NCBI GenBank assembly: GCA_964036195.1
Contig: OZ038451.1
Span: 10,606,529 to 10,670,528, forward strand
Source of the DNA: Sphaerolaimus hirsutus
Lineage: Eukaryota; Nematoda; Chromadorea; Monhysterida; Sphaerolaimidae
Length of the DNA: 64,000 nt
Reading direction: 5' to 3'
The position numbers and the translations under genes are program-made. The notes below the pieces were generated by a model. The model saw only the letters and a list, made by a program, of their open reading frames with translations, ran no database searches and was not told where the DNA came from. How positions within the stretch are numbered: the first letter of the stretch is position 1; each line of letters opens with the position of its first letter. Below are positions 5,118 to 60,800 of the stretch, piece by piece.

Positions 5118-5125
5118 GTTGAATC

Positions 5126-10431: not shown

Positions 10432-10712
10432 CCCTCTGGAAAATGTTTAATAACATGTTTAAAATGCTTTCTTGTTTGTTTGTTTTGTAAATGACTCTGA
10501 ATATCAGTTAAAAATAAGTTTTCAAATGTTCGAATTAAGTGTTTGAACTTTTGTCGAATACTTTTCGAATTTTCTCAGCTTAATTATTGCATTTTCAAAT
10601 TTTTCTGCTGAATTTTGAACACATATTTCAATTTTTGCAGCTCTTGAAGTTGTTAAAAAATACCTCAAATACATTTGCGCATTCAATCAATGCGAAATTG
10701 ATGTGTTGAATC

Positions 10713-11348
10713 TAGGGTTGGAAAAAAACGTTGTTTTTTTAACTCCATGTTTTTTTTAAAAACAACGTTTTTTTCATTAAAAACTTTTTTAAACATTTTT
10801 TTAAAAGCTCCCAGATATGGCCCTGGGTCAATATATATAGGTATATCAGGCGAGTGGCATTACTCTGTGATGTTATATACAACCATATAATGGCCGTGGA
10901 GCCATGGGATAGAATTATAAGTGGTGATTAGTGTCAAAAATGTCCATTTTTTGTCGACATGTTCGTATATCGCCTTATAGTCGAATGTTCGTGACTTCAA
11001 GTGAAGTTTGGCACGGAATAGGTATCAAACAAGGTTATAAAAGGAGGTTGTTACTTTGGGAGTGATGTTACACACTGTGGAGGTACATGGAAGCACATTA
11101 CCTTAATAATTTATTTATACTACAGCAACATATGACCAATGTTAGCACTATACCACTGGCTTATTCACCAATGTTAGCACATAGAAATGGATGCTTTGAT
11201 ACTAAAAATGCCACAAAACCAATACCAAACAACCACCAATGTCAATTTGTGTGTGAAATTGCGCGCTTGCATGCAAGCAAAATACCTAGTGCTTAGTACT
11301 AACATGTTTTTTAAATAAAACATTGAAAAAAAACATTGGCCAACCCTA
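10713..11348. mobile_element. hAT-type element (TAGGGTTGG), duplicated copy
   Basis: Second copy of 4482-5117, including both GTTGAATC flanks. Confidence 0.85.
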
Positions 11349-11999
11349 GTTGAATCCTGTTTTAGCATTTTATTACGCATTTTCAGCCAAAAATACTGTA
11401 AAAATTTGAAAGCGTTTTTTGAATTTTTGTATCTTTCTGTAAATTGATTTTTACATGTTTTTCTAGTGGTAAAAAATAAAAAAATCGAAAATATGCGTTC
11501 GTTTGCCATCGTTAGCCCTGCTGCAGTTGCAGTGGTAAAAACGGGGGCGCGGTTGCGTGATCGTTATGGGGGCGGGGTAATAAATATGTGCATGCCTCAT
11601 AACATGCAATAAATTGGTTTGAAGGGCGATTTTGTTTGATTGGAAGTGAGTAGACGCTTGACATTGTGCGATTGCGATTAGCGTTCCAAAAAATGACCAA
11701 TCTCAAAAAATCTCTCTAAAAATAAAATCTCTCATGTTTTTGTAAATCTCTGAGAAAATCTCCCATGCTTGAAAAAGATCTAAAAAAATCTGTAAATCTG
11801 TCACAACTGAAGTCTAACTGAAAAGCTGCTCAGCTCAGCACTAGCAGCACTTAAGGTATTTATACAGAGTATTTTCAGTGCAAAATGTCGGGCATTCATT
11901 TATTCAGATTTTGGTTATGAAAAACCTATTTCTTACTAAACTTTTCACGAAAATTTCAGGGGAAAGAATGCCCCCTAGAATAGACCCTCCATCGAATTA

Positions 12000-31474: not shown

Positions 31475-33988
31475 GTGCTCCGGCTGATGTGCCTTCAATC
31501 GTTGATCGGCGACGGGCTCAAAGCCAAAGTGCTCGATTCCTACCGAACCAAATTCGTGCAGGTGGCCGCACTTTTCAATCATCAATGGCGACCCACGCAG
31601 TAGTTGACACATGTGTGTCAACTTGTTTGTGTCTACTCAAATTTCGGCTCCACGTATCACAGCGCGATCTTCCAATGCACGTGCCGTAATATTTATGTTT
31701 CAACATTGCCGCATGTGCATTTAGAGATGGCTCTGCGACACGCAAAACCAAAATCTGAGTTGACACAAACCAGTTGACATGTGTCAACTAGTGTGTTCTC
31801 CACCAACAGCCAACAACACCCCCTTCAATTTACCCCCCCCCCCCTACAGAGCTACGGCTACGAACTGGTAGACGACCTTATCAACCTGCAGCGGGCGGGT
31901 ATACTGCGCGAGCGCGCCGCCGCCCCCAAAAGCATGCCCTTCAGCTACCCCTCCCTGAACGATTCTGGTCCATCCAGGAAGGGGGATAGTTCGCCGGTTT
32001 GTGGAGTGGGTCAGGTGAAGAAACAGTTGCGACTGCTTGTTGAGGGGGTCGATGAACAGGTGTGTTTTTGTTATGTGTTCGTTTTTTTGCATATGCAGTT
32101 GATTGTGGTGGGAGCGGTGTTTGTTGCAGATGTGGTCAACTGAAACGCGTTTTACTGTGAAATTACCATATCCAATCTGAATAAAAATCTAAGATTTTTT
32201 CTCTATATTTGCATTGCTCCATTTATTGGGGCGTTTGGTATACAATTATACAGGTTATTCTATTCAGCAAACTACGGTCCCATTCTTTCTATATTAAATT
32301 TTCATACGTTCAGTGTGGTCTTTCAAACTTTTCGCTACTCAATAAACAAGGCAAGTAAGCATGATTTCAACCATTCTGATGCCAGTCCCGCACCTTGTAA
32401 AGTGTCAAAGGTCGTGTAAAATGTCGCATATTGTGTAAACTGTCGCGCAAACTGTCTATTGTCATTCAAAATGTCAAAAGTTCAGTAATGCAATTTTGTA
32501 TTTTTATTGCCGCTTGACAGGGTGCGGCACTGCTCCCTGGTTTGGCGTGACACTCTCAACCATGCCAATGTACACATCTATAACCTGCATCTGCCATGCC
32601 CACAGAAGCCGACCGACTGCGCGTACTCGTACAGCGGGTGGGCGCCGGTGCTGGGTCGGCTGCTGGAGGCGCTGCTGGGCGGCTGGTCGCAGCCGCACCT
32701 GCTCGACGCCGTCAAGTCGCTGCCCGGCGCCATGGAAGTCAACTTGCGTCGGTTGTTGTGTGTGTGTGTGTACATTGGTGTGGGTGGTTGCCCGAATTGG
32801 TTCGGTTGGCACCTGGCTACTGATTTGCATTGAAAAACTCTTTTGGGAGCTTTACAGGGACGTATCCAGGATTTTTGAGCGGGGGGGGGCTGCTTGTTTA
32901 CGGGGGCCGGCGAGCGGGGGGGGCTCAGCCCCCCCCCCCCTAAATTTTTTCACTATATAGGGACGGAAAGTTGTTTTGGCGCTAGCGCCATACCAAGGCG
33001 CCACGCCATGGCGCTATTGGCGTTGGCGCCAGCGCCAGGAACCGCTTTAAATAGATGTAAATATGCATACATATGCAGCGAAAGTCGCAAAAATGTGTTC
33101 ATTTTCAAGGATATTTGTTTACAGGGACCGATCCGCTAAAAATACAATGTATGGGGAAGAAATTGCGCGCTTGCGCGCAAAATTTTTCAGAAACATCGAA
33201 AAATGTAAAGGGAAAATTGCATTTTCCGGGACTTTTTAGGTCTCACCCCGGGAGGGGGGGCTGCAGCCCCCCCCCCCCGCCCCCCCCCTGGATACGGCCC
33301 TGGAGCTTTATATTTGAAAAAACGTTAGAAAAAAATCATAAGATTTTTTTTTCTGTTGATTTTTTATTTTTGCCAGAATTTTCAGATTTACTTAATTATA
33401 TCTTCATTTTGAGTGATTTTCTGCGATGAAAAAAATCACATTTTTATGTATTTATATTTATTTTTCCGACTAGAGTTGATTATATTTTCTCAAAATCACC
33501 CTATCCTATCAATGCTACTACCTATATTTGATTTTCTTGGAAGCGACAGTATCAATCCCTGATTTTTTTAAGTGAAAATTTTACTTTTCACATTTTACCC
33601 TTACTATAAAGACTTTGAATTTCCACGCCGCCCCACATTTCAGCTTGCGAAAGCGACGCCGCAAGCAAATCGGTCCCAGATCCCGGTGCCACAGATCGCC
33701 GGCCGTCCGTGCTCATGATCGTGATCGGTGGGATCACATTTGGTGAGATGTCCGCGCTACGAATGGTTGCCAGGCAGAGGGGTGAGTCGACGGATCGTGT
33801 CCCTGTAGTCATGTAAACCCGCCAGTCATGTATTATTTTTTTTTGGGGGGGGGGTAGCAACGATGGAGTAAACTTTTTTATGACCATTTCGCTGTTTCGC
33901 AGGATTCTATTTGATGGTTGTAACGACGAGCGTGATAAATGGGGAGCGATTTTTGGAACAGTTTCACACGTTGCCGCCGGATGGTTAA
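31475..33988 (+). CDS. VPS33A: Vps33A, C-terminal part (Sec1/Munc18 family)
   Basis: SM-family subunit of the HOPS/CORVET tethering complexes, which binds SNAREs for endosome/lysosome fusion. Exons: 31475-31561 (VLRLMCLQSLIGDGLKAKV), 31850-32059 (SYGYELVDDLINLQRAGIL to VEGVDEQ), 32606-32747 (KPTDCAYSYSGWAPVL to KSLPGAM), 33644-33781 (PSVLMIVIGGITFGEMSALR) and 33903-33988 (FYLMVVTTSVINGERFLEQF then stop). Phases agree at every junction. The YSGWAP and IGGITFGEMSALR segments match the YSGYAP and LGGVTFAEIAALR signatures of Vps33A as I recall them. About 230 of the expected ~600 residues are present. No exons for the N-terminal SM domain are found upstream. Introns contain MITEs. A polyadenylation signal follows at 34219. 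Confidence 0.92.
31591..31797. mobile_element. ACTAGTTGACA-family MITE in VPS33A intron
   Basis: Left part GTAGTTGACACATGTGTGTC and right part GACATGTGTCAACTAGTGTG are inverted repeats, with CAAATTTCGG / CCAAAATCTGAG near the centre. It is closely related to the copy at 36376-36584. Confidence 0.75.
32383..32541. mobile_element. GTGCCAGTCCC-family element in VPS33A intron
   Basis: Left end GCCAGTCCCGCACCTTGTAA pairs with right end TTGACAGGGTGCGGCACTG. The interior has AAATGTCGCATATTGTGTAA-type motifs. It lies inside the intron between 32059 and 32606 and does not form its splice sites. Confidence 0.65.
32855..33302. mobile_element. hAT-type element with G-run/C-run arms (VPS33A intron)
   Basis: Same architecture as 21906-22337. 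Termini CAGGGACGTATCCAGG / CCTGGATACGGCCCTG with a perfect 8-bp duplication GAGCTTTA (32847-32854, 33303-33310). Confidence 0.93.
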
Positions 33989-34614: not shown

Positions 34615-37600
34615 ATGAGCATGGATACTGATTTGGCGCTGCTCATGAAGCGCTACGGCTACCAGGCAACCAGTGGCACCGAAACTCAGAGATTGATCCA
34701 GGAATATGTGAGTGGTTGTTTTGTTTTTATATTTTGGTCCTTTGGCTGTGTCCGCCCTTTGTCTATTGGGTGTAAACGTGGTAATTTTTTTTAACTGTTT
34801 TTAAGATGATATTTTAAGATTAAGTAGTTTTCGATATTTTCCTAGTCCATTTTCGCTTTTTTTTCTGCCAAATTATGGATATATCTTTATGCTTCCCGGC
34901 CTTCTGCCGGCCCGTACACATTCCAAACATGCGCCACAGAACTTTAAAATCTGCCACCCTAAAATAGGCTTCCATTTTCATTCGCACCATGAACGTTGCT
35001 TAACAACGAGTCTATTGATTACGCTCGCGCATGTGCTTATCACTGACCTGCTCGCATGAAATTCCTCATTGTGAGTTCCTACGTCATTTGATTGCATTTT
35101 CAGTTGAGCCGGCCCGTGGATCATGCTCTTGTGGCGGCGAATCTGCGTCGGGTGCTGCTGCGATGCATGGATAAAGCCAGGGAAAGCGTGCAGGCTGCCG
35201 ACCAGACCGCCGTTAGTCCACCGTCCCCCGATTTGCGCGCCAATGGGCTCCCACACACTAGTTGACATCACAAATAAATGTCAACTGAATATCAACTAAA
35301 AAAACATGAAAAAAATTGTTAAGGCATCACATTTTACAGAAACAATGGAAATTAAGTGTCACGATATTTTATTAACAATGTTCTATCAAATAGGAAGTCG
35401 AAATCAAATAATTAACCAAAATTTAGTTGACATCGATTTTGATGTCAACTAGAGTGTTGGAGCCCAATGGCCCTACACACACTAGTTTTCACCGTGACCA
35501 TTATGAAAACTGAAATGGCGACATGGCGACATCCAGCGTACTCTTTTTGTATGCTATGTGTTTTAGTTTTAAAAATTTTAAATTTTAACTTTCATTCATT
35601 TACATTCCAATTAATATAAAATAAAATCATTCAACCGTGTTCATTAATTTGCATTTGAAAAATTTTCAGTTTTCACACGAAGTCACGGTGAAAACTAGTG
35701 TGTGTAGGCACAATCTGCCGTATTTATTCGAGCGGCGCTCGCAGGCGGCGGCTCTGCACCAGCGCATGCGCGAGCAGGAGACGCTCATCTCCAAGCAGGA
35801 GGAGGACTTGTCGTCGTTGCGCAAGCAGTTGGCGCAGTGCCAGCGCGAACTGCACACCAAGCAGCAGATCGCCGACGCGGCGCACGCCGACCAGACCGCC
35901 GCGTCGCGCGACGGCCCCGACTTGGAAAAGTGGAAGGAAAAGTATGAGGTTGGGTTGCGCATTTAGAATATCATGCTGAAAATATACCGTAAGTCACGTC
36001 AACTAGTTATTTTGAAGGTGCAAATTGACAAAAGGTAGTTTTTTTTAGCGATTTTGAGCAAAAGTTGGGATGAAATTTCTCAAAAATCGTTTCAGGTGGC
36101 TAAATAGCTGGTCGATTTAGGGGTGTTAAAAAAGGAACCTAGAACCTTTCCCTCTGGGAAAGGTAGATAGCTGGGCGGCCTCCGGGATAGATAGCTGGGC
36201 GATTTTGATTGTAAGCCCCCCCCCATTATCGGAACCCCTGTAAATGCGTGTGTTTCACAGAGCGCTCAGAGCACCCTGAAGCAGTACCAGGACAAGACTG
36301 AGCAGCTGAGACACGATCTGCACGCTGCCAATTCGGGACGCAGGGCTGTGGAAGATAAATGCAAGGTGCTCTATTGGCGGCCCACACACTAGTTGACACA
36401 CGCGTGTCAACTGGCCTGTGTCAACTCAGATTTCGGTTTCACATGTCGCATTACGCCCTTCCAATGCACTTTCCGTAATATTTTTTCAACATTGCAGAAT
36501 GTGCATTTGGAGATCGCGCTGATTCAGGTGAAGCCGAAATCTGAGTTGACATCAATACATGTGTCAACTAGTGTGCGGGCCGCCATGATTTTGTTATTTT
36601 GATAATTATTTAGGTCAACTTAATCATGATGTTATTTTGATGTTAAAAATTTGTACGTAGACACTACAAAGCGATTTGCTCGCCATGAAGCGTCGATTGG
36701 ATGCGGTCGAGGGTCGAGCATCTGAGTTGACACTGTTGAAAAATGCTCTGCGAAAATGGCAGCACGCTGGCGCTCAATTTTGTTAGCAAAGCAATTCCTA
36801 CAAATTTGCCAAGGTTTACCTACTACAAAAGTGGTGGACAAACTCGCAACGTTTCATTTCGCAGTGGAGAAGCTGGATTATCACCGCTTGGCTCCGCCCA
36901 CTTTCTACCTGGCAGCTAAGCGGTGCGCTTTGACCACTAGCACAGCACTTTCGGCGGCGCCGAAACGCGTCAGGTGTCAATCCCAGACCCTGTAAAATGC
37001 CATGTAAAATGTCAAGTGTCATGCAAAGTGTCCAAAGTCATGTAAAATGCCCTGGAAAATGGCAAACGCACGTTTACCATTTTTCAGTGCATTTTATATG
37101 ACTTTTGACATTTTACATTATATTTTACGTTTTACATGACATTTGACATTTTACAGGGCATTTTACAGTGTCTGGGACTGCGCCCAGGACAACGTCACGC
37201 AACAGCGTCGACGTGTCGCTGGACGCCGCGCAGGAGGAGCACGCGGTCGCTTCAAAATCCGATGCGCACATTAAGTTGACCGCGCCGGCGGCCAGTGCGG
37301 ACAAGTCCATGCAGCGTATTTTGGTTGGTGTTGGTAAATAATTTTTTTCAAATGATTATCATATTTTTTAAATTGATGTGTTTTTTTAAAAATTACCGTT
37401 GACATTGGTTTTTTTTAATCAAGGCGTTTGAAAAAAAGGATTTTTCAACCCTAGAGTCATCCGACCTTGACTTAAAATATGTGCCCCTAAAAAGTGTCCA
37501 CGCAGGCGCTGTGTGCGAGTGCGCAACGAGTCGTCCACGGGCGTCCACAAGCAACAATGTTCAGCGGCACAAACAGATTGAAACCGTCGCCCAAGAAGCG

Positions 37601-40600
37601 CGCCCGTTTGAAGTCGCCGCCCAAACCGACTCCAGTGATGCCAAGCGGACCAGCTCTTCCTGCATCCACCGGTGCAGTTGCAGCCGCGGCGGCAAATCAA
37701 TGCTCTGCTTCCAGTTCGGACGCGCCGGCTGGTGCTTCTCCCAGACCCTGTGAAATGCCCTGTGAAGTGTGAAATGTCATGTGAAGTGTGTAAAATCATG
37801 TAAAATGCCCTGGAAACTGGGAAACTTAGTTTCTATCTCACCAGGCATTTTACATGACACTTGACACTTTGCACCACACTTGACACTTTACATGGCATTT
37901 TCCAGTGTTTGTGAGTGCCCCCTGGTGTTGCCGCCGTGGCCGGCGATGCGGCGCTCACCGCGAGACTGGGCGCTATGACGCAGCACTGCAGGGCGCTGTC
38001 GCCGCTCAGAAAGGCCGGCGCGGCGCTGCGGCAGCCGCTCAGTGGGGCGGCAACGGCGGGGGTGGGTCAGCCTGCGGCTGCAAAGTCGCTCACGTGTGTG
38101 AGTGGGGGACATGTGGGAGAGTGTGTGATGCGGGGGTATCTTGAATTTTGACCCCCCGGGGGTTGGATGGATGGAAAATCGCTTCTCCGGAGGGATAGAT
38201 AGCTGGAAAAAAATTTTTGATGGGGGGGGGGGTCGATATATAGGTTTTTTTAAGGTGAAGAATGAAGAAAATCGCTAAAATTAGGGGAAACATTTATTAA
38301 AATAGGTTTACAAGCACATATAGCCAAAAATAGCTGAAAAGTGGCAATAATTTGCCGCTGGGACAGATAGATAGCTCGGCGATTTGGGGGGTTTCCCGTC
38401 CAAAACACCACCCCCCCCATTCGAAACCCCTGATGTGATGGAATTGGTGTGCTGTAGCAAAACGTGTTTCTCTATTTTGCAGGCCTCTCGCCCCCTCGTC
38501 CCGACTCGAGCTGCCAGGTCCAAAACTGCGGGTCTGCCTAAACAAGCAAAAACGTTGGTTGATATTCTGCACAGTTGTTAAAATGTACGTACATTTACTC
38601 AAAAAATACGCGTACGCGAGTACGCGTTAAATACATTTACCGTATTACCTCGAATTATCCCCCCCCTGAATTAACCCCCCCCCCTCGAATTAACCCCCCC
38701 TCAAAATGGGCTGGGGAAATAATAAACCCCCCCTCGAAATACCCCCCCCCTCCGGAATGATGTACGTCATGTACATAATAAATACGTCATGTATGCAATG
38801 TACATGATGTATATTACTGTTTATTTGTATTGCAGCTACACATGGACATGTTTGTGTAGCTAATCTACGTTTTTATGTCCAAATATATCTTGTTTGGACA
38901 CATTTATTACCTGTTTTGGGCATGCAAATGCCTACTATTTACTACGATCCTTACGAAAATTTGTGACGAAATAATAAGACCCCCCTCGAATACCCCCCCC
39001 CCTCGAATTAACCCCCCCTCAAATTTTGCTGGCGAAATAATAAACCCCCATGGGGGTATTTCGAGGTAATACGGTACATATACTTTTTTAAAGTAATGTA
39101 CCGTATTTCTCCAATCAAAGCACCCCGGGTGCTTTACAAAATTGGAGCACTTTTCAGACTACTTTTCAAGTGCCATTTATAGCACCCTGGTGCAATACAA
39201 ATCACGGGGTGCTATACTATGTTTTTTTTCAATACCAATAGATACTGAAGGTTATGAATGAATGATACTGACTGATCAACTTTTTTATACCTAATTTATA
39301 TATGCAAATGTAATATTCCCACGACCTTTCCCACTTTAAGTTGCTCTGGTGAATTACACCAGACGCATTTGATGTAGCCGCAGCATGCAATTAAATAGGC
39401 ATATGTGTGCAAAAGAACGCTGCGCACCATGCAAACAAATTCTTATGCAACAGATGGCTTTGTGATCTTTCCTCATATCTTTTCCGCAATATTTTTATGC
39501 TAGGAGAGGAGATAATCATCAAGTTTTTTTTTGGATGAGAAGTAAAGCACCCGGGTGCTTTACACGGAACATTTTACACAGCATAGCACCCCGGGAGCTT
39601 TGATCGGAGAAATACGGTACTCACTTTTAGGCGTACATTTTAAAAGTGCACGCGTACAGAGAAAATGTATTTTGTTGTTAAAATCCCACTTTTCTGTTGC
39701 TAAAATAAGAAAATTTTGAAGAAATCATCATTTTTCTAGAAAATACTAAGTAATCACTAAAAAACGACATCTATTATGCCTTCCAGTGTAAAACTCACTC
39801 TCTAGTATAAAACTCACTATAAAAGGTAGTAGCTTTTACGTTTTTAGGGGTGAAAGTACTCGCTTTTACATTTTCCTGGGAAAAAAAAGTATTTTACTCA
39901 CATTTACGCATGAATACGAGTAAAAAAAGTATTTTACATTTTCTATACTTTGTGGTGAGTAAAAAATAAATACTTACATTTACACATACTTTTGAAAAAA
40001 GTTAAGTAATTCTAACAACTCTGATATTCTGCCGTTTTCGTTTTCGCACACACGTTATGAAGATATTTGACGAATTTTTTTCGTTTGCATTTTAAGGCGC
40101 GCAGTTCAAAAGCCAGATGCGGCACCGGTCAGCAGAAATGGGTCCGCAGTTTCTGATAACGTGGATCAAAGTGTAATTGCGCATCAGCTCAGTGCCGAAC
40201 AGCAGGCTGTGAAAGAGGAATTCAAAAAGAAGCGACTGAAGGTTCTGGGCGAGGCGACAGAATTCTTCCATGAACTGCTGCAACTGCAGCATGCATTCAT
40301 TGAACCGCTGCCCATGATGTTCCGTAAAATCGTGGGTGTTTCTTATTTCTTAGAATTTGTAAAATAATAATTTGAATTTTAAACAAATTAAACTTTGAAA
40401 ACTTTTTATGGAACCATGACAGAAAACAGATGCGTCAACAAAAAATATCCACGCAGTGTTCGACCGAGGAACGACCACCAGACAAGTCTGCACCAGTGAA
40501 ACCAGTGGCAACCAGTGAAAAAGTACCATCCGTTTCAGCTACAAATCAGTCACGTCAAACGGACACACCAATGGACAAGCAAAGCACCAGTGGTGTTACT

Positions 40601-43600
40601 GCCGTGAAAAAAGAGCCGGCAAAAAATTCTGGCGCTATGATCATTGGCACAGATCCAAATTCGGACGAGTCGGATGATTCTGATGCGGATGGACCCAGAT
40701 GCGTTATTGCCGATTCGGTGGAGACTGTAAAACAGGCGCCAAAGCCACGAGAGAAGAAACTGCCCGCGGCCCGGCTGGTTGAAAAAACCCCGAGCGATGC
40801 GATGGTGTGTGTGCAAGTGCTTTTTGGCCCACCCTAGTTATTGGCAGGTGTTCTATATCCGACCACAGATCCGCTAGAATTTCACATTTGTCCTGTACAG
40901 TGTGAAATTCCATCACGGTTTATCAAGTAAAATCACTTCTCTATTTTCTTTCTGACGGTAATAAAGTAGACGTTTCATTGAAGTAGGCGTAGGCCTACTA
41001 GTCATCTTAACCCGCTAGTCATGTAGACACGCTAGTGATGTGTTGTAACCCGCTACTCATCTATGTCCTAATTTTCGGGGGTCAATCCACTTTGACATGT
41101 TGTGTACTTTAACATGTTGTGGAATATAACATGCCATCATGGGAATTTGACATGTTGTGGAAAGTGACATGCCAAAAGGTGAAAGTAACATGTCAAGCGT
41201 GAAAGTAACATGCCACAGCCCAAAGGTGAATGTAACATGCAAAGCGTGAAAGTAACATGTCATGCACATGCGGTCGCAAGTTGTAACTCATGCATGTGAA
41301 AAAGTTATCAGTGATTGATCATTATCATCATGTTTGTCAAGGTGTGAATTCTATGCATGTTCACACATGCAAATCAAACCCTCAAATCAATTTTTCTTAT
41401 CTTCTTAGTCATGTGTACTTATATATTTACTAACTTGTGTGTGCTGTGCTGTCTAGTGAAAGATATATTGTTATATTGATGAATAATATTAACAAGCTAT
41501 AATCCTTATCATTTTAACAGCGTCACAAGGATTGGCACATAAAATTGGCTGCGTGTTTGCAGCCGGGAATCGCTTAAATGATCAATCGCAATTCGTTATT
41601 GATCGTTCAAGTTTTTTTCCGCATGTTTATATTTTTGCGTGCCATATACACTGGATGCCAACTGGATTTAGTGTCAACTCGATTTGTTGAAAAGCAATCA
41701 CTATTTCCATGTCAATTTGAGCATGAATTCACTAACTATCAACTCAAATCTTAATTATGACCAGGGGGCACCCCCAGACCCTGTGAAAAACCCTGTAAAA
41801 TGTAAAATGCCATGCAAAGTGTCAAAAGTACATAAGTTTGCCATTTTGCAGGGCATTTTCCATGACTTTTGACACTATGCATGACATTTTACATTTTGCA
41901 GGGCTTTTTACAGGGTCTGGGAGTGGCACCAGTTGGTGCAATTGACATCCTATAAAACTTGATGTGAACTATTCCTGAAGCGCATACTTTGCGCAGAATC
42001 GTACAATAATTTATAGAAAAAAATTTGTGATAAATAAGTTACATCAAAAATTGATCAAAATCCTGTAATAAACTTCGTAATTAATTATTAAATAAACAAT
42101 AAAAACAAAATAAAATGATGAAAAACTGTCTAATTTTTGGTTCATTATTTAGATGGGTTGTGGTAGGTTTTGGCACATTTTGACACTCCGAAAACAATAG
42201 AACAGCAGCCTCCAAAAACGACAGGTGAAAATTACATCTGAAAAGTTGCAAAAGACAGCAAATATGAGCCTACCGCGGTTGTGCTGCATGGTTTCATATG
42301 TGTTAAAATGTATTTACGTTCACTCAATACTTACATATACCTACTTGACTAGGCAATGGGGTCATAGGGTGCTTTATTTCCTAGCCTATGTAGATACTCC
42401 GCGCTGCGCGCGCTGCGCACGCTGCGTGCGATCGATGAATTCAGTACTCTACTCGGCGGACCGCAAAGTATGTGCTACCATAATTTACTGAATCTTGTGA
42501 TAAATTTTTCATTCATTGATAAATGTAACTTTTTCACACACATGAGTTACAACTTGCGACCGCATGTGCATGATATGTTACTTTCACGCTTTGCATGTTA
42601 CATTCACCTTTGGGCTGTGGCATGTTACTTTCACGCTTGACATGTTACTTTCACCTTTTGGCATGTCACTTTCCACAACATGTCAAATTCCCATGATGGC
42701 ATGTTATATTCCACAACATGTTAAAGTACACAACATGTCATAATGACCACACTCAATTTTCGGGTATAGATGACTAGCGGGGTGATAAGCGACAGCCGGG
42801 TTTAAGTGGTTGGTAGGCCGCAGTGCGTGTGCTCTACAGTAGTAAATGCGTGAGCCCTTTTTCTGGCACTTTTCCATCACTAATTCGGAGCCATCACACG
42901 CAGACAACGGATAATGACCCAATGAGTGTGGACCAAGCTTCGCTGTACTTCAACCGGACGGTGAACGCTATCTGCGTGGCCGGTCTCCGCGCGGTGCTGG
43001 ACAAAAGTTGGTCGGGTGCCTGCCACTCATGACTCTGTCAAATGTAAAATGACAGGCAGAGTGTAAAAAGCCATGTAAAATGTCCTGAAAAATTGCAAAA
43101 GTTTGCAATTTTGCAGGCATTTTACATGACTTTTGACACTGCGTGAAATTTGACATTTTACACGGCATTTTACATCACTTTTCACATCACTTTTCACACT
43201 TTACATGCCGTTTGACATTTTACACGGCATTTTACAGTGTCGAGCGCCCCCAGTAAGACCTCTGCACCATTTACAAACCTGTAAAATACATATGTGCCGT
43301 GCAACGCAGAGTCGGCAACTGCGTTGGACGAGTCGCACGCGTACGTGCGCGAACTGGACGCGGCGTGGCGCGGCTACAGCTGCGTGGACGGCGGCAGGCA
43401 CGCCACCGCCGCCCTGGCCAACATGGTCGTCGAGCTGGTCGACTCGGTGGAAAAGCTGGTCGCTGCCAGTGAAGGTTGTTCTTTGGCCCCACACACGCTA
43501 GTTGACATCGACACCAAATGTCAACTGGTTCCATTCCCAATTCAAAGCTTGCGTTTCAATGTCGATCGTCGGCTCGTCAGCAAGCTTTGAATCGGGATCG

Positions 43601-48680: not shown

Positions 48681-48889
48681 AGATATGTAAACGTATTTAC
48701 TCAGTACTTGAGTGAATATGATGTTTTAAGCAGAGTTGTTCAAATTGTCATACTTTTTTGAAAGTATATGTAAATATAAAGTATTTATTTTTACTCACCC
48801 CTGAGTACAGAATATGTAAAGTAATTTTTTTTTCTTCTCACATTTACCATTTTGTGCACTTTACATTTTTATCATTGTGCTCACTCTCA

Positions 48890-51800
48890 CGTTTACTGCT
48901 TCGAGCACACTAACATTTCTAGCTTCACACACTCTCACATTTGCAGCTTTGCGCACTCTCACATTTGCAGCTTCTCGCACTCTCACATTTGCAGCTTCGC
49001 GCACTCTCACGTTTACAGCTTTGCACACTCTCACATTTGCAGCCTCGCGCACTCTCACGTTTGCAGCTTCGCGCACTCTCACATTTGCAGCCTCGCGCAC
49101 TCTCACATTTACAGCTTCACGCAGTCTCACATTTGCAGCTTCGCGCACTCTCATATTTGCAGCTTCAAGCACTCTCACGTTTACAGCTTCGCGCACTCTC
49201 ACATTTGCAGCTTCAAGCACTCTCACGTTTACAGCTTCGCGCACTCTCACATTTGCAGCTTCAAGCACTCTCACATTTGCAGCTTCGCGCACTCTCACAT
49301 TTGCAGCTTCGCGCACTCTCACATTTGCAGCTTCGCGCACTCTCACATTTGCATCTTCGCGCACTCTCACGTTTGCAGCTTTGCGCACTCTCACATTTGC
49401 AGCTTCAAGCACTCTCACATTTGCATCTTCGCGCACTCTCACGTTTGCAGCTTTGCACACTCTCACATTTGCAGCTTCAAGCACTATCACGTTTACAGCT
49501 TCGCGCACTCTCACATTTGCAGATTCAAGCACTCTCACGTTTGCAGCTTCGCGCACTCTCACATTTGCAGCTTCGCGCAGTCTCACATTTGCAGCTTCGC
49601 GCACTCTCACATTTGCATCTTCGCGCACTCTCACGTTTGCAGCTTTGCGCACTCTCATATTTGCAGCTTCGAGCACTCTCACGTTTGCAGCTTTGCGCAC
49701 TCTCACATTTGCAGCTTTGCGCACTCTCACGTTTACAGCTTCGCGCACTCTCACATTTGCAGCTTAGCGCACTCTCACATTTAATCAACTTCACTTCACA
49801 AATTAAATTAACGAGATTAAATGAGTGATTTTAAGAGATAATTCTGTAGAAATATTTCAAAAATAGACACCTATACTTTTTTCCAAGAAAACATACTTTA
49901 GTAGTATTTTATCTTTCTTAATGAAAAACGGAATACTTTGTTTATGTATTATGAAACATTTATTTCCAACGGAATTATTCCAGAACATACATTATAGTGT
50001 TTATAAACTGTTAAAACGTTCAAAGTGTGATATTTATGTCCATTGGGAACGTATTACATGAGAAACATTCACTGCATTCATAAAGAAATAAATATAAATA
50101 AAGCATAAAAGCTGCATTTTCAAAAAACCTATATATTGTGCCCAAACGAGCATAAGCCGCACCAGGAACTCTCAATTGAGCTTATCACGTATTATGCACA
50201 CTCTCACATTTGCAGCTTCAAGCACTATCACGTTTACAGCTTCGCGCACTCTCACATTTGCAGATTCAAGCACTCTCACGTTTGCAGCTTCGCGCACTCT
50301 CACATTTGCAGCTTCGCGCAGTCTCACATTTGCAGCTTCGCGCACTCTCACATTTGCATCTTCGCGCACTCTCACGTTTGCAGCTTTGCGCACTCTCATA
50401 TTTGCAGCTTCGAGCACTCTCATGTTTGCAGCTTTGCGCACTCTCACGTTTGCAGCTTTGCGCACTCTCACATATTCAGCTTCAAGCACTCTCACGTTTA
50501 CAGCTTTGCGCACTCTCACGTTTGCAGCTTTGCGCACTCTCACGTTTACAGCTTCGCGCACTCTCACATTTGCATCTTCGCGCACTCTCACATTTGCATC
50601 TTCGCGCACTCTCACATTTACAGCTTCGCGCAGTCTCACATTTGCAGCTTTGCGCACTCTCATATTTGCAGCTTCAAGCACTCTCACGTTTACAGCTTCG
50701 CGCAGTCTCACATTTGCAGCTTTGCGCACTCTCATATTTGCAGCTTCAAGCACTCTCACGTTTACAGCTTTGCGCAGTCTCACATTTGCAGCTTTGCGCA
50801 CTCTCATATTTGCAGCTTCAAGCACTCTCACGTTTACAGCTTCGCGCACTCTCACATTTGCATCTTCGCGCACTCTCACATTTGCAGCTTTGCGCACTCT
50901 CATATTTGCAGCTTCGCGCACTCTCACATTTGCAGCTTAGCGCACTCTCACATTTAATCAACTTCACTTCACAAATTAAATTAACGAGATTAAATGAGTG
51001 ATTTTAAGAGATAATTCTGTAGAAATATTTCAAAAATAGACACCTATACTTTTTTCCAAGAAAACATACTTTACTAGTATTTTATCTTTCTTAATGAAAA
51101 ACGGAATACTTTGTTTATGTATTATGAAACATTTATTTCCAACGGAATTATTCCAGAACATACATTATAGTGTTTATAAACTGTTAAAACGTTCAAAGTG
51201 TGATATTTATGTCCATTGGGAACGTATTACATGAGAAACATTCACTGCATTCATAAAGAAATAAATATAAATAAAGCATAAAAGCTGCATTTTCAAAAAA
51301 CCTATATATTGTGCCCAAACGAGCATAAGCCGCACCAGGAACTCTCAATTGAGCTTATCACGTATTATGCACACTCTCACATTTGCAGCTTCAAGCACTA
51401 TCACGTTTACAGCTTCGCGCACTCTCACATTTGCAGATTCAAGCACTCTCACGTTTGCAGCTTCGCGCACTCTCACATTTGCAGCTTCGCGCAGTCTCAC
51501 ATTTGCAGCTTCGCGCACTCTCACATTTGCATCTTCGCGCACTCTCACGTTTGCAGCTTTGCGCACTCTCATATTTGCAGCTTCGAGCACTCTCACGTTT
51601 GCAGCTTTGCGCACTCTCACGTTTGCAGCTTTGCGCACTCTCACATATTCAGCTTCAAGCACTCTCACGTTTACAGCTTTGCGCACTCTCACGTTTGCAG
51701 CTTTGCGCACTCTCACGTTTACAGCTTCGCGCACTCTCACATTTGCATCTTCGCGCACTCTCACATTTGCATCTTCGCGCACTCTCACATTTACAGCTTC

Positions 51801-54800
51801 GCGCAGTCTCACATTTGCAGCTTTGCGCACTCTCATATTTGCAGCTTCAAGCACTCTCACGTTTACAGCTTCGCGCAGTCTCACATTTGCAGCTTTGCGC
51901 ACTCTCATATTTGCAGCTTCAAGCACTCTCACGTTTACAGCTTTGCGCAGTCTCACATTTGCAGCTTTGCGCACTCTCATATTTGCAGCTTCAAGCACTC
52001 TCACGTTTACAGCTTCGCGCACTCTCACATTTGCATCTTCGCGCACTCTCACATTTGCAGCTTTGCGCACTCTCATATTTGCAGCTTCGCGCACTCTCAC
52101 ATTTGCAGCTTAGCGCACTCTCACATTTAATCAACTTCACTTCACAAATTAAATTAACGAGATTAAATGAGTGATTTTAAGAGATAATTCTGTAGAAATA
52201 TTTCAAAAATAGACACCTATACTTTTTTCCAAGAAAACATACTTTACTAGTATTTTATCTTTCTTAATGAAAAACGGAATACTTTGTTTATGTATTATGA
52301 AACATTTATTTCCAACGGAATTATTCCAGAACATACATTATAGTGTTTATAAACTGTTAAAACGTTCAAAGTGTGATATTTATGTCCATTGGGAACGTAT
52401 TACATGAGAAACATTCACTGCATTCATAAAGAAATAAATATAAATAAAGCATAAAAGCTCCATTTTCAAAAAACCTATATATTGTGCCCAAACGAGCATA
52501 AGCCGCACCAGGAACTCTCAATTGAGCTTATCACGTATTATGCACACTCTCACATTTGCAGCTTCAAGCACTATCACGTTTACAGCTTCGCGCACTCTCA
52601 CATTTGCAGATTCAAGCACTCTCACGTTTGCAGCTTCGCGCACTCTCACATTTGCAGCTTCGCGCAGTCTCACATTTGCAGCTTCGCGCACTCTCACATT
52701 TGCATCTTCGCGCACTCTCACGTTTGCAGCTTTGCGCACTCTCATATTTGCAGCTTCGAGCACTCTCACGTTTGCAGCTTTGCGCACTCTCACGTTTGCA
52801 GCTTTGCGCACTCTCACATATTCAGCTTCAAGCACTCTCACGTTTACAGCTTTGCGCACTCTCACGTTTGCAGCTTTGCGCACTCTCACGTTTACAGCTT
52901 CGCGCACTCTCACATTTGCATCTTCGCGCACTCTCACATTTGCATCTTCGCGCACTCTCACATTTACAGCTTCGCGCAGTCTCACATTTGCAGCTTTGCG
53001 CACTCTCATATTTGCAGCTTCAAGCACTCTCACGTTTACAGCTTCGCGCAGTCTCACATTTGCAGCTTTGCGCACTCTCATATTTGCAGCTTCAAGCACT
53101 CTCACGTTTACAGCTTTGCGCAGTCTCACATTTGCAGCTTTGCGCACTCTCATATTTGCAGCTTCAAGCACTCTCACGTTTACAGCTTCGCGCACTCTCA
53201 CATTTGCATCTTCGCGCACTCTCACATTTGCAGCTTTGCGCACTCTCATATTTGCAGCTTCGCGCACTCTCACATTTGCAGCTTAGCGCACTCTCACATT
53301 TAATCAACTTCACTTCACAAATTAAATTAACGAGATTAAATGAGTGATTTTAAGAGATAATTCTGTAGAAATATTTCAAAAATAGACACCTATACTTTTT
53401 TCCAAGAAAACATACTTTACTAGTATTTTATCTTTCTTAATGAAAAACGGAATACTTTGTTTATGTATTATGAAACATTTATTTCCAACGGAATTATTCC
53501 AGAACATACATTATAGTGTTTATAAACTGTTAAAACGTTCAAAGTGTGATATTTATGTCCATTGGGAACGTATTACATGAGAAACATTCACTGCATTCAT
53601 AAAGAAATAAATATAAATAAAGCATAAAAGCTGCATTTTCAAAAAACCTATATATTGTGCCCAAACGAGCATAAGCCGCACCAGGAACTCTCAATTGAGC
53701 TTATCACGTATTATGCACACTCTCACATTTGCAGCTTCAAGCACTATCACGTTTACAGCTTCGCGCACTCTCACATTTGCAGATTCAAGCACTCTCACGT
53801 TTGCAGCTTCGCGCACTCTCACATTTGCAGCTTCGCGCAGTCTCACATTTGCAGCTTCGCGCACTCTCACATTTGCATCTTCGCGCACTCTCACGTTTGC
53901 AGCTTTGCGCACTCTCACGTTTGCAGCTTTGCGCACTCTCACATATTCAGCTTCAAGCACTCTCACGTTTACAGCTTTGCGCACTCTCACGTTTGCAGCT
54001 TTGCGCACTCTCACGTTTACAGCTTCGCGCACTCTCACATTTGCATCTTCGCGCACTCTCACATTTGCATCTTCGCGCACTCTCACATTTACAGCTTCGC
54101 GCAGTCTCACATTTGCAGCTTTGCGCACTCTCATATTTGCAGCTTCAAGCACTCTCACGTTTACAGCTTCGCGCAGTCTCACATTTGCAGCTTTGCGCAC
54201 TCTCATATTTGCAGCTTCAAGCACTCTCACGTTTACAGCTTTGCGCAGTCTCACATTTGCAGCTTTGCGCACTCTCATATTTGCAGCTTCAAGCACTCTC
54301 ACGTTTACAGCTTCGCGCACTCTCACATTTGCATCTTCGCGCACTCTCACATTTGCAGCTTTGCGCACTCTCATATTTGCAGCTTCGCGCACTCTCACAT
54401 TTGCAGCTTAGCGCACTCTCACATTTAATCAACTTCACTTCACAAATTAAATTAACGAGATTAAATGAGTGATTTTAAGAGATAATTCTGTAGAAATATT
54501 TCAAAAATAGACACCTATACTTTTTTCCAAGAAAACATACTTTACTAGTATTTTATCTTTCTTAATGAAAAACGGAATACTTTGTTTATGTATTATGAAA
54601 CATTTATTTCCAACGGAATTATTCCAGAACATACATTATAGTGTTTATAAACTGTTAAAACGTTCAAAGTGTGATATTTATGTCCATTGGGAACGTATTA
54701 CATGAGAAACATTCACTGCATTCATAAAGAAATAAATATAAATAAAGCATAAAAGCTGCATTTTCAAAAAACCTATATATTGTGCCCAAACGAGCATAAG

Positions 54801-57800
54801 CCGCACCAGGAACTCTCAATTGAGCTTATCACGTATTATGCACACTCTCACATTTGCAGCTTCAAGCACTATCACGTTTACAGCTTCGCGCACTCTCACA
54901 TTTGCAGATTCAAGCACTCTCACGTTTGCAGCTTCGCGCACTCTCACATTTGCAGCTTCGCGCAGTCTCACATTTGCAGCTTCGCGCACTCTCACATTTG
55001 CATCTTCGCGCACTCTCACGTTTGCAGCTTTGCGCACTCTCATATTTGCAGCTTCGAGCACTCTCACGTTTGCAGCTTTGCGCACTCTCACGTTTGCAGC
55101 TTTGCGCACTCTCACATATTCAGCTTCAAGCACTCTCACGTTTACAGCTTTGCGCACTCTCACGTTTGCAGCTTTGCGCACTCTCACGTTTACAGCTTCG
55201 CGCACTCTCACATTTGCATCTTCGCGCACTCTCACATTTGCATCTTCGCGCACTCTCACATTTACAGCTTCGCGCAGTCTCACATTTGCAGCTTTGCGCA
55301 CTCTCATATTTGCAGCTTCAAGCACTCTCACGTTTACAGCTTCGCGCAGTCTCACATTTGCAGCTTTGCGCACTCTCATATTTGCAGCTTCAAGCACTCT
55401 CACGTTTACAGCTTTGCGCAGTCTCACATTTGCAGCTTTGCGCACTCTCATATTTGCAGCTTCAAGCACTCTCACGTTTACAGCTTCGCGCACTCTCACA
55501 TTTGCATCTTCGCGCACTCTCACATTTGCAGCTTTGCGCACTCTCATATTTGCAGCTTCGCGCACTCTCACATTTGCAGCTTCGCGCACTCTCACATTTG
55601 CATCTTCGCGCACTCTCACGTTTGCAGCTTTGCGCACTCTCATATTTGCAGCTTCGAGCACTCTCACGTTTACAGCTTTGCGCACTCTCACGTTTGCAGC
55701 TTTGCGCACTCTCACGTTTACAGCTTCGCGCACTCTCACATTTGCATCTTCGCGCACTCTCACATTTGCATCTTCGCGCACTCTCACATTTACAGCTTCG
55801 CGCAGTCTCACATTTGCATCTTCGCGCACTCTCACATTTGCATCTTCGCGCACTCTCACATTTACAGCTTCGCGCAGTCTCACATTTGCAGCTTTGCGCA
55901 CTCTCATATTTGCAGCTTCAAGCACTCTCACGTTTACAGCTTCGCGCAGTCTCACATTTGCAGCTTTGCGCACTCTCATATTTGCAGCTTCAAGCACTCT
56001 CACGTTTACAGCTTTGCGCAGTCTCACATTTGCAGCTTTGCGCACTCTCATATTTGCAGCTTCAAGCACTCTCACGTTTACAGCTTCGCGCACTCTCACA
56101 TTTGCATCTTCGCGCACTCTCACATTTGCAGCTTTGCGCACTCTCATATTTGCAGCTTCGCGCACTCTCACATTTGCAGCTTAGCGCACTCTCACATTTA
56201 ATCAACTTCACTTCACAAATTAAATTAACGAGATTAAATGAGTGATTTTAAGAGATAATTCTGTAGAAATATTTCAAAAATAGACACCTATACTTTTTTC
56301 CAAGAAAACATACTTTACTAGTATTTTATCTTTCTTAATGAAAAACGGAATACTTTGTTTATGTATTATGAAACATTTATTTCCAACGGAATTATTCCAG
56401 AACATACATTATAGTGTTTATAAACTGTTAAAACGTTCAAAGTGTGATATTTATGTCCATTGGGAACGTATTACATGAGAAACATTCACTGCATTCATAA
56501 AGAAATAAATATAAATAAAGCATAAAAGCTGCATTTTCAAAAAACCTATATATTGTGCCCAAACGAGCATAAGCCGCACCAGGAACTCTCAATTGAGCTT
56601 ATCACGTATTATGCACACTCTCACATTTGCAGCTTCAAGCACTATCACGTTTACAGCTTCGCGCACTCTCACATTTGCAGATTCAAGCACTCTCACGTTT
56701 GCAGCTTCGCGCACTCTCACATTTGCAGCTTCGCGCAGTCTCACATTTGCAGCTTCGCGCACTCTCACATTTGCATCTTCGCGCACTCTCACGTTTGCAG
56801 CTTTGCGCACTCTCATATTTGCAGCTTCGAGCACTCTCACGTTTGCAGCTTTGCGCACTCTCACGTTTGCAGCTTTGCGCACTCTCACATATTCAGCTTC
56901 AAGCACTCTCACGTTTACAGCTTTGCGCACTCTCACGTTTGCAGCTTTGCGCACTCTCACGTTTACAGCTTCGCGCACTCTCACATTTGCATCTTCGCGC
57001 ACTCTCACATTTGCATCTTCGCGCACTCTCACATTTACAGCTTCGCGCAGTCTCACATTTGCAGCTTTGCGCACTCTCATATTTGCAGCTTCAAGCACTC
57101 TCACGTTTACAGCTTCGCGCAGTCTCACATTTGCAGCTTTGCGCACTCTCATATTTGCAGCTTCAAGCACTCTCACGTTTACAGCTTTGCGCAGTCTCAC
57201 ATTTGCAGCTTTGCGCACTCTCATATTTGCAGCTTCAAGCACTCTCACGTTTACAGCTTCGCGCACTCTCACATTTGCATCTTCGCGCACTCTCACATTT
57301 GCAGCTTTGCGCACTCTCATATTTGCAGCTTCGCGCACTCTCACATTTGCAGCTTAGCGCACTCTCACATTTAATCAACTTCACTTCACAAATTAAATTA
57401 ACGAGATTAAATGAGTGATTTTAAGAGATAATTCTGTAGAAATATTTCAAAAATAGACACCTATACTTTTTTCCAAGAAAACATACTTTACTAGTATTTT
57501 ATCTTTCTTAATGAAAAACGGAATACTTTGTTTATGTATTATGAAACATTTATTTCCAACGGAATTATTCCAGAACATACATTATAGTGTTTATAAACTG
57601 TTAAAACGTTCAAAGTGTGATATTTATGTCCATTGGGAACGTATTACATGAGAAACATTCACTGCATTCATAAAGAAATAAATATAAATAAAGCATAAAA
57701 GCTGCATTTTCAAAAAACCTATATATTGTGCCCAAACGAGCATAAGCCGCACCAGGAACTCTCAATTGAGCTTATCACGTATTATGCACACTCTCACATT

Positions 57801-60800
57801 TGCAGCTTCAAGCACTATCACGTTTACAGCTTCGCGCACTCTCACATTTGCAGATTCAAGCACTCTCACGTTTGCAGCTTCGCGCACTCTCACATTTGCA
57901 GCTTCGCGCAGTCTCACATTTGCAGCTTCGCGCACTCTCACATTTGCATCTTCGCGCACTCTCACGTTTGCAGCTTTGCGCACTCTCATATTTGCAGCTT
58001 CGAGCACTCTCACGTTTGCAGCTTTGCGCACTCTCACGTTTGCAGCTTCGAGCACTCTCACGTTTGCAGCTTTGCGCACTCTCACGTTTGCAGCTTTGCG
58101 CACTCTCACATATTCAGCTTCAAGCACTCTCACGTTTACAGCTTTGCGCACTCTCACGTTTGCAGCTTTGCGCACTCTCATATTTGCAGCTTCAAGCACT
58201 CTCACGTTTACAGCTTCGCGCACTCTCACATTTGCATCTTCGCGCACTCTCACATTTGCAGCTTTGCGCACTCTCATATTTGCAGCTTCGCGCACTCTCA
58301 CATTTGCAGCTTAGCGCACTCTCACATTTAATCAACTTCACTTCACAAATTAAATTAACGAGATTAAATGAGTGATTTTAAGAGATAATTCTGTAGAAAT
58401 ATTTCAAAAATAGACACCTATACTTTTTTCCAAGAAAACATACTTTACTAGTATTTTATCTTTCTTAATGAAAAACGGAATACTTTGTTTATGTATTATG
58501 AAACATTTATTTCCAACGGAATTATTCCAGAACATACATTATAGTGTTTATAAACTGTTAAAACGTTCAAAGTGTGATATTTATGTCCATTGGGAACGTA
58601 TTACATGAGAAACATTCACTGCATTCATAAAGAAATAAATATAAATAAAGCATAAAAGCTGCATTTTCAAAAAACCTATATATTGTGCCCAAACGAGCAT
58701 AAGCCGCACCAGAAACTCTCAATTGAGCTTATCACGTATTATGCACACTCTCACATTTGCAGCTTCAAGCACTATCACGTTTACAGCTTCGCGCACTCTC
58801 ACATTTGCAGATTCAAGCACTCTCACGTTTGCAGCTTCGCGCACTCTCACATTTGCAGCTTCGCGCAGTCTCACATTTGCAGCTTCGCGCACTCTCACAT
58901 TTGCATCTTCGCGCACTCTCACGTTTGCAGCTTTGCGCACTCTCATATTTGCAGCTTCGAGCACTCTCACGTTTGCAGCTTTGCGCACTCTCACGTTTGC
59001 AGCTTTGCGCACTCTCACATATTCAGCTTCAAGCACTCTCACGTTTACAGCTTTGCGCACTCTCACGTTTGCAGCTTTGCGCACTCTCACGTTTACAGCT
59101 TCGCGCACTCTCACATTTGCATCTTCGCGCACTCTCACATTTGCATCTTCGCGCACTCTCACATTTACAGCTTCGCGCAGTCTCACATTTGCAGCTTTGC
59201 GCACTCTCATATTTGCAGCTTCAAGCACTCTCACGTTTACAGCTTCGCGCAGTCTCACATTTGCAGCTTTGCGCACTCTCATATTTGCAGCTTCAAGCAC
59301 TCTCACGTTTACAGCTTTGCGCAGTCTCACATTTGCAGCTTTGCGCACTCTCATATTTGCAGCTTCAAGCACTCTCACGTTTACAGCTTCGCGCACTCTC
59401 ACATTTGCATCTTCGCGCACTCTCACATTTGCAGCTTTGCGCACTCTCATATTTGCAGCTTCGCGCACTCTCACATTTGCAGCTTAGCGCACTCTCACAT
59501 TTAATCAACTTCACTTCACAAATTAAATTAACGAGATTAAATGAGTGATTTTAAGAGATAATTCTGTAGAAATATTTCAAAAATAGACACCTATACTTTT
59601 TTCCAAGAAAACATACTTTACTAGTATTTTATCTTTCTTAATGAAAAACGGAATACTTTGTTTATGTATTATGAAACATTTATTTCCAACGGAATTATTC
59701 CAGAACATACATTATAGTGTTTATAAACTGTTAAAACGTTCAAAGTGTGATATTTATGTCCATTGGGAACGTATTACATGAGAAACATTCACTGCATTCA
59801 TAAAGAAATAAATATAAATAAAGCATAAAAGCTGCATTTTCAAAAAACCTATATATTGTGCCCAAACGAGCATAAGCCGCACCAGGAACTCTCAATTGAG
59901 CTTATCACGTATTATGCACACTCTCACATTTGCAGCTTCAAGCACTATCACGTTTACAGCTTCGCGCACTCTCACATTTGCAGATTCAAGCACTCTCACG
60001 TTTGCAGCTTCGCGCACTCTCACATTTGCAGCTTCGCGCAGTCTCACATTTGCAGCTTCGCGCACTCTCACATTTGCATCTTCGCGCACTCTCACGTTTG
60101 CAGCTTTGCGCACTCTCATATTTGCAGCTTCGAGCACTCTCACGTTTGCAGCTTTGCGCACTCTCACGTTTGCAGCTTCGAGCACTCTCACGTTTGCAGC
60201 TTTGCGCACTCTCACGTTTGCAGCTTTGCGCACTCTCACATATTCAGCTTCAAGCACTCTCACGTTTACAGCTTTGCGCACTCTCATATTTGCAGCTTCG
60301 AGCACTCTCACGTTTGCAGCTTTGCGCACTCTCACGTTTGCAGCTTTGCGCACTCTCACATATTCAGCTTCAAGCACTCTCACGTTTACAGCTTTGCGCA
60401 CTCTCACGTTTGCAGCTTTGCGCACTCTCACGTTTACAGCTTCGCGCACTCTCACATTTGCATCTTCGCGCACTCTCACATTTGCATCTTCGCGCACTCT
60501 CACATTTACAGCTTCGCGCAGTCTCACATTTGCAGCTTTGCGCACTCTCATATTTGCAGCTTCAAGCACTCTCACGTTTACAGCTTCGCGCAGTCTCACA
60601 TTTGCAGCTTTGCGCACTCTCACATATTCAGCTTCAAGCACTCTCACGTTTACAGCTTTGCGCACTCTCACGTTTGCAGCTTTGCGCACTCTCATATTTG
60701 CAGCTTCAAGCACTCTCACGTTTACAGCTTCGCGCACTCTCACATTTGCATCTTCGCGCACTCTCACATTTGCAGCTTTGCGCACTCTCATATTTGCAGC

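Follow-up and report, generated by a model that had tools for sequence, protein, structure and literature searches.

A family of inverted-repeat elements, probably Harbinger-like, as candidate introners in the nematode Sphaerolaimus hirsutus

The window analysed here is a 64,000-nucleotide stretch of the genome of the nematode Sphaerolaimus hirsutus (GenBank assembly GCA_964036195.1, contig OZ038451.1, positions 10,606,529–10,670,528 of the forward strand), and its focal feature is a predicted intron on that strand (36974–37187) that consists of one transposable element and a three-base copy of its target. Read in the window sequence, the interval begins with GT (36974–36975) and ends with AG (37186–37187), and it is one long inverted repeat whose arms (36991–37068 and 37071–37148) are 82% identical. 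Folded as RNA, it reaches −115.2 kcal/mol (z −16.4; none of 200 shuffles as good) in a single hairpin with both ends of the interval at its base. A coding exon (36862–36973), preceded by tttcgcag, lies upstream, and a second coding exon (37188–37333) lies downstream, its 3′ end placed at a GGTAAAT donor with further GTs close by. Exact excision joins the two as GTC AG|G ACA in a single open frame (VEKLDYHRLAPPTFYLAAKRCALTTSTALSAAPKRV^RTTSRNSVDVSLDAAQEEH...). The first-pass annotation had described GT and AG at the two ends of one inverted-repeat interval with exons joining in frame, which we confirm, and had counted the AG as part of the element, which we correct. The mobile part is a 211-bp element (36974–37184) with terminal inverted repeats (TIRs), GTGTCAATCCCAGACCCTGTAAAATG at the donor end and ...GGGACTGCGCC at the acceptor end, and it brings the GT donor. 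The AG lies outside it, in CAG 37185–37187, which is the right copy of a 3-bp target-site duplication (TSD) and the predicted 3′ splice site; the left copy, CAG 36971–36973, is exonic. This origin of the 3′ splice site had been overlooked, as had the class of copies with CTG on both sides described below.

The focal gene segment is amplified about tenfold at C2:10.41–10.75 Mb (L039–L048), in near-complete and broken copies; nine of these are further copies of the focal element's locus. Comparison of the copies shows selection on the exons around the focal junction. In the frame that exact excision requires, the distinct codon changes are 8 synonymous and 2 nonsynonymous, a count that omits two codons at the inferred downstream donor, the one that it splits (37333/37334) and the next; with those two codons, the pooled synonymous-to-nonsynonymous ratio is 21:7 in the required frame, as against 10:17 and 1:26 in the other frames. 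Changes in the upstream exon are likewise mostly synonymous in frame. Four near-complete copies (L039, L040, L041, and L044) carry 1 run of insertions or deletions in exons and 15 in introns and elements, in a tally that omits L042, L043, L045 (whose counts equal those of L044), L046, and L047 and that set the borders of the second element, discussed below, at 37738–37919, a few bases off the final 37732–37924. The predicted focal protein is a coiled coil, and no Pfam family matched it above cut-off.

The focal element belongs to a large family. We searched the whole assembly (348 Mb, 762 contigs) and took 40 loci from the best matches, 30 of them dispersed and 10 in the focal tandem array, and 40 further loci as the pattern search listed them, beginning at the start of chromosome C1. 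From 64 of 70 loci we parsed 80 copies, oriented by their tips alone; the set omits L001–L008 and L039–L048, and six of the 40 C1 loci (L049, L050, L066, L067, L068, and L080) gave no parsed element. The copies measure 136–388 bp and share one plan: C[A/T]G, GTGCCA[A/G]TCCCAGACCCTGTAAAATG ... CATTTTACAGGGTCTGGGACTGCCCC, C[A/T]G. The two TIRs are alike save at their tips, where the donor end has GTGCCA and the other end, read inwards, GGGGCA, so that the acceptor-end tip appears as CCCC when written on the same strand. Genome-wide there are 2,605 perfect donor ends after CWG (1,377 CAG and 1,228 CTG) and 1,721 perfect acceptor ends (989 CAG and 732 CTG), and the reversed-pattern control gave 0 matches, which places the family well outside chance. 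Allowing up to 2 mismatches gives 8,539 matches, a figure that is not a copy number, as the opposite end of the same element may be counted too.

The triplets on either side of the element mostly match each other. They are CAG/CAG in 23 of the 80 copies, CTG/CTG in 22, CTG/CAG in 11, CAG/CTG in 1, and other in 23; where CWG stands on both sides, the pair matches in 45 of 57 copies (p 1e-5). The listed exact end positions, paired on C1, give a similar picture (CAG/AG 23, CTG/TG 16, CTG/AG 5, CAG/TG 1; Fisher 8e-7), in a set that shares one CTG/AG and several matched pairs with the 80 copies and in which pairs about 300 bp apart may be two neighbouring copies. Because the flanking triplets match, the triplet is a duplication and the WG of the acceptor belongs to the target. 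Of the 57 CWG-flanked copies, 54 have T as the second base of the donor; at the acceptor all 57 have C first and G last, with A (34 copies) or T (23) between them. Short length, TIRs, a TSD of fixed length, and high copy number make the family one of miniature inverted-repeat transposable elements (MITEs). In all 55 copies folded, a set from which two copies measuring at least 330 bp were excluded, the ends pair, a base within the first 14 being matched to one within the last 18. A hAT origin, considered on account of the CAGG-like ends, is ruled out by the duplication, which is 3 bp of CWG and not 8 bp, and symmetric splice sites within the TIRs are ruled out by the position of the AG in the duplication. 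Virus-borne copies were rejected as well: a 19-mer occurs in one IMG/VR contig, and the similarity, which ends after 22 bases, was taken as chance.

We found that elements in coding sequence have a preferred orientation and that exact excision restores the frame. We trained a codon model on 14 fragments and scored the remaining 66 copies with it; the training fragments stand outside the orientation and frame counts, and one counted copy (the second element of L035) is a duplicate of a training copy. With a score above 8 taken as coding, 14 of the 66 qualified, 12 in sense and 2 in antisense, while among 1,139 control windows taken at these loci 5.4% scored as coding in any of six frames. For sense copies, the frames of the left and right flanks, scored separately, agree under exact excision in 21 of 33 copies at threshold 0, 10 of 15 at 2, 9 of 11 at 3, and 8 of 10 at 4, where chance agreement is one third. 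The copies at L023 and L032 run antisense to the better-scoring coding strand, and as introns they would start with GG.

Conserved domains continue across the junctions. Twenty joined fragments, chosen by hand as long or recognisable (9 CTG/CTG, 6 CTG/CAG, and 5 CAG/CAG), were scanned against Pfam, and in 8 of them a family crosses the junction above cut-off: 7tm_1 (L020), ABC_membrane_2 (L035 and L015), Oxysterol_BP (L009), Xan_ur_permease (L079), Cullin (one of two fragments in L022), Oscp1 (L057), and CHGN (L064). Two of these eight share an origin, L015 and L035 being duplicates of one locus. Six of the eight are CTG/CTG, two CTG/CAG, and none CAG/CAG. Three more fragments have one-sided matches (Cullin, Lig_chan-Glu_bd, and CUT_C, the last below cut-off), one has a zinc finger below cut-off that barely passes the junction, and 8 of the 20 have no Pfam match. 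Related genes lack the insertion: three other loci of the same genome (on C1, C13, and C6) read across the insertion point of the oxysterol-binding fragment with no stop, at 41–53% identity, and five other loci (three on C15, one on C3, and one on C9) read across the position of the SLC23-like CTG/CTG fragment, again with no stop. Similarity among the 80 copies reaches both predicted splice boundaries in different genes, with domain continuity in 8 of 20 fragments, and insertion into exons is evident from TSDs at exon edges together with uninterrupted related genes.

The CTG/CTG copies, 22 of the 80 as against 23 CAG/CAG, interrupt conserved domains. The focal element and the CAG-ended copies have the canonical GT...AG termini of U2 introns, whereas a CTG/CTG copy under exact excision ends in TG. 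In 15 of the 22 there is no in-frame AG in the last 40 bases, and in 7 there is one; an AG followed by nine bases such as TGCCCCCTG occurs in 5 of the 22 and in the window's second copy, as against 2 of 23 CAG/CAG copies. Only GT...TG gives back the uninterrupted coding sequence. We enumerated all GT/AG pairs near the ends of 13 coding copies and found no alternative common to all: OSCP1 has none within the limits tried, the cullin and CHGN copies each have one that is neutral in length with residues replaced, and the others alter length. An in-frame upstream ACAG of the right TIR, proposed as the 3′ site of every CTG/CTG copy, fails because the frame is off by one whichever of the three GTs in the consensus left TIR is used, and the enumeration found no common solution. 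An ABCD-type gene is present twice, and comparison of its two copies shows 4 synonymous and 0 nonsynonymous codon differences in the exons flanking the second element, against 9 substitutions and 4 indels in that CTG/CTG element, which keeps GT...TG; a gene carrying such an element thus stayed under constraint. The CTG/CTG copies predict GT-TG introns, with TG as a putative 3′ splice site. Mismatched pairs are mainly CTG/CAG rather than CAG/CTG (11 vs 1 in the 80 copies, p 0.006; 5:1 in the C1 pairs), and AG has a higher share at right ends (57.5%) than at left ends (52.9%, p 0.003), which suggests selection for AG after insertion.

Taken as a whole, the family is in our reading an introner, with a probability of roughly 0.88: a non-autonomous MITE of PIF/Harbinger type, NuwaI-like, that inserts into exons at CWG, duplicates the CWG, and is removed from pre-mRNA as an intron. 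Insertion at CWG with a 3-bp stagger would be followed by transcription of the host gene, and the whole element would then fold as one hairpin with both splice sites at its base. The element tip would supply the GT, and the right CWG, standing after a C-rich tract, would be recognised as the 3′ splice site, so that removal from the GT through the right CWG would return the pre-insertion coding sequence with nothing gained or lost. The element would function in a single orientation because one TIR starts with GTGCCA and the other, read inwards, with GGGGCA. A CAG target would yield a GT-AG intron such as 36974–37187 and a CTG target a GT-TG intron, and a later change of T to A at the acceptor seems to be favoured. 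The family, its ends, the duplication, the orientation bias, the restored frame, the uninterrupted related genes, and the selection on exons are read directly from DNA, and from them splicing, the use of TG, a role for the hairpin, and the transposase group are inferred. The further proposal, that this one transposon family is the source of hundreds to thousands of introns in an animal, with TG as the sole 3′ splice site in a large proportion of them, and that the CWG target fixes the 3′ site, the hairpin lets the spliceosome tolerate TG, and selection converts TG to AG intron by intron, we favour by a narrow measure.

The proposed assignment to NuwaI depends on two features, the TSD and the TIR tip. 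The CWG duplication of NuwaI is seen here in the 45 matching pairs, and of the two tips the acceptor end, read inwards as GGGGCAG, fits the GGG of NuwaI, while the donor end, GTGCCA, departs from it by its GT. The asymmetry of GTGCC and GGGGC suggests a route from transposon to introner in which one end gained the GT. DDE_Tnp_4 has at least 163 matches in the genome, counted from the 150 candidates scored out of 306; in the two DDE_Tnp_4 element types that were fetched, the TIR motifs of the family gave single matches only, at 3 mismatches. The abundant Harbinger-type transposase elements represented at L089, L091, and L092 were rejected as the autonomous partner, since they end in GGGGCC followed by AAT or ATT and fit the Pangu group, and the type at L090 was rejected on finding no convincing TIR match in the stretch read. 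The three at L089, L091, and L092 are near-identical to one another; their right end, near 4315, resembles the CACACTAGTT elements of the window, of which they are a possible source.

Several observations weigh against the introner reading. A search of the genome found no uninterrupted relative of the focal gene, only its tandem copies on C2. CWG is missing at one or both ends in 23 of the 80 copies, and the antisense copies that score as coding on both flanks at threshold 0 agree in frame in only 1 of 7. The Pfam fragments were selected by hand, and none of the 5 CAG/CAG fragments among them was matched; close to the junction, the ORP relatives of the oxysterol-binding fragment align with gaps of one to three residues. 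In the ABCD copy at L015 the acceptor of the 195-bp element has lost one base and reads CGG where its duplicate L035 has CTG, so that exact excision breaks the frame unless the 3′ end is CG; otherwise this copy is broken. The five CTG/CTG copies with an AG nine bases before the end, and the copy at 37732–37924, could be GT-AG introns that add three codons. Finally, the search for an autonomous partner found none, as the termini of the DDE_Tnp_4 elements examined differ from those of the family.

A narrower account is possible, in which GT-AG introns arise at CAG sites only and CTG/CTG copies either use nearby AGs particular to each locus or are harmful, mostly unfixed, and due to be lost. The seeming preference for AG over TG in mismatched pairs and at right ends agrees with it, as do the greater frequency of the AG nine bases upstream in CTG/CTG copies, the other in-frame GT-AG alternatives at several loci (two of them length-neutral), and the human data, in which TG sites are used only as alternatives to AG (PMC2374985). 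Yet CTG/CTG copies are as numerous as CAG/CAG copies; they supply six of the eight domain-spanning cases, and in 4 of these six the last 40 bases contain no in-frame AG; no alternative pair serves all 13 copies, and OSCP1 has none within the limits tried; the ABCD exons are under constraint with the element present; and GT-TG introners exist in Micromonas (PMC3879977). We regard this account as a serious possibility that falls somewhat short of even.

The remaining explanations fare worse. It is unlikely, in our judgement, that the focal exons are decayed or non-coding, which would put the focal element outside a gene although the family could still be an introner: the lack of a Pfam match above cut-off, the broken copies in the tandem array, and the slight constraint on the next exons speak for this, and the synonymous excess confined to the required frame speaks against it. 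Somatic excision of DNA, like that of ciliate internal eliminated sequences, would by reasoning alone explain the CTG/CTG class, as exact excision between short duplications needs no AG; the coding orientation bias of 12 to 2 and the GT at one end only favour RNA splicing, and we consider excision of this kind very improbable. Equally hard to credit is that these are ordinary MITEs in pre-existing introns, with a splice-site match owed to chance or to reading by eye. Some copies do sit within larger introns, for example at 32379–32539. Against this, coding sequence directly adjoins the 3-bp duplication on either side, domains cross the junction, and related genes are uninterrupted there.

The window holds further copies of the family. 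Those named in the first-pass annotation all exist: a TAG/CAG copy at 1635–1836 (forward), a CAG/CAG copy at 2130–2331 (reverse), a partial copy at 30580, a diverged copy at 32379–32539 (forward) within a larger intron of a VPS33-like gene, and a CTG/CTG copy at 41762–41929 (reverse). That list was incomplete, for the first two recur at 7865–8066 and 8360–8561, and a nearby CTG/CTG copy (37732–37924, forward) had been missed. The introner interpretation offered there is supported from the DNA, and the genome-wide pattern that it predicted was borne out by many copy ends at exon edges, precise TSDs, and related genes that lack the insertion. Its view that the family is active or recently active is supported in part: recent spread is suggested by the thousands of intact ends, while no autonomous source element or insertion polymorphism was seen. 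The copy at 37732–37924 is predicted to form a GT-TG intron, or a GT-AG intron through the AG at 37914–37915, which keeps the frame and adds three codons. Coding-looking stretches flank it on the forward strand at 37506–37731, where frames 0 and 2 are open over the junction and selection on them is weak, and at 37925–38090, the 3′ limit being approximate. Five copies pooled give 14 synonymous and 22 nonsynonymous changes around it in the better of the two open frames, so that it may lie in the focal gene or in the next one, and in either frame.

Upstream of the focal gene lies the VPS33-like gene, which matches the Sec1 family. A 5.6-kb tandem duplication (234–5768 and 6446–11999, 99% identity) carries two family copies in each unit. 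Within the coding-looking stretch 5′ of the focal intron, a different TIR element (GGGCTCCCACACACTAGTT...AACTAGAGTGTTGGAGCCC) occupies 35246–35464 with AAT on both sides, and a related one follows at about 35470–35708; their family is Pangu-like (ANT) and possibly a second source of introns. A 24-bp tandem repeat (CACTCTCACATTTGCAGCTTCGCG) fills 48882–63357 and 63774–63998, about 14.5 kb in some 600 units, and several of its frames stay open, for as many as about 480 codons; the left flank of the next copy of the focal element (L042), just past the window's end, resembles it. An Rfam search of the window gave no match.

Introners with TIRs and TSDs are established, and among animals and land plants they are reported from only two groups, both animals (PMC9860276, Gozashti et al. 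2022). As in those introners, a mobile element with TIRs and TSDs here creates predicted introns by insertion into exons. The Chrysochromulina case in the same report resembles ours in its element-borne 5′ site and TSD-derived 3′ site, and differs in having no TIRs; the combination found here of TIRs, a CWG TSD, a GT from the element, and an AG or TG from the target is unlike the examples read there. NuwaI, a group of PHIS (PIF/Harbinger) elements known from 16 animal genomes, has a 5′-CWG-3′ TSD and a TIR that usually starts with GGG, and its autonomous members average about 4.5 kb, most with two open reading frames (PMC4482050). Our family shares the CWG TSD and an animal host, resembles NuwaI in the GGG tip at one of its two ends, the acceptor end, and departs from it in the GTG that starts its other TIR and in its parsed length of 136–388 bp.

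Precedents for TG and other unusual termini exist. In the green alga Micromonas, GT-TG introners of very variable length are recorded in the classes IE-B (25 members) and IE-D (6), TG and CG acceptors, most of them supported by expressed sequence tags, occur in another intron class, and the main class, IE-A, has 6,112 members (PMC3879977), so the size of the present family is not unprecedented. Its authors favour reverse splicing, and their text nowhere uses the terms 'inverted repeat' or 'target site' (PMC3879977). Our family resembles IE-B and IE-D as repeat introns with GT-TG sites, here predicted from DNA, and differs from them in its animal host, in having TIRs and ends that number in the thousands, and in the CWG duplication by which AG or TG is set (PMC3879977). 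Fritillaria larvaceans have AG/AC and AG/AT introns, a U2-type spliceosome, and a duplicated U2AF (PMC13326754); they too show a short triplet before the 5′ site and at the 3′ end of the intron (YAY there) and are an animal case of widespread non-AG 3′ ends, which here are predicted, whereas our termini are GT/AG and, if real, GT/TG at a CWG triplet (PMC13326754). In human U2 introns TG serves as a 3′ splice site in 36 genes, as in our prediction, though only as an alternative to AG and never as the sole site (PMC2374985). Introns with GA and GG donors are known from one copepod (PMC5714493). In diplonemids, base-pairing draws together the ends of introns whose termini are not GT-AG (PMC12621601), as pairing is predicted to bring the ends together here; theirs is a different lineage, and the abstract names no mobile family (PMC12621601). 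Among the matches listed in literature on introners, TIRs, Harbinger, and TG acceptors, we recognised no report of this introner family, and a large animal GT-TG introner family would be new.

The origin of new introns is an old question, and an animal family with thousands of intact ends lets intron birth and maturation be followed copy by copy, given a readable insertion signature and uninterrupted related genes. If the CTG copies are spliced at TG, they break the rule, based on human introns, that TG never acts as a 3′ splice site on its own (PMC2374985) and extend to animals, at scale, what is recorded in 31 introners of Micromonas (PMC3879977). Were TG indeed their only 3′ site, the family would amount to a natural experiment on the birth and maturation of spliceosomal introns.

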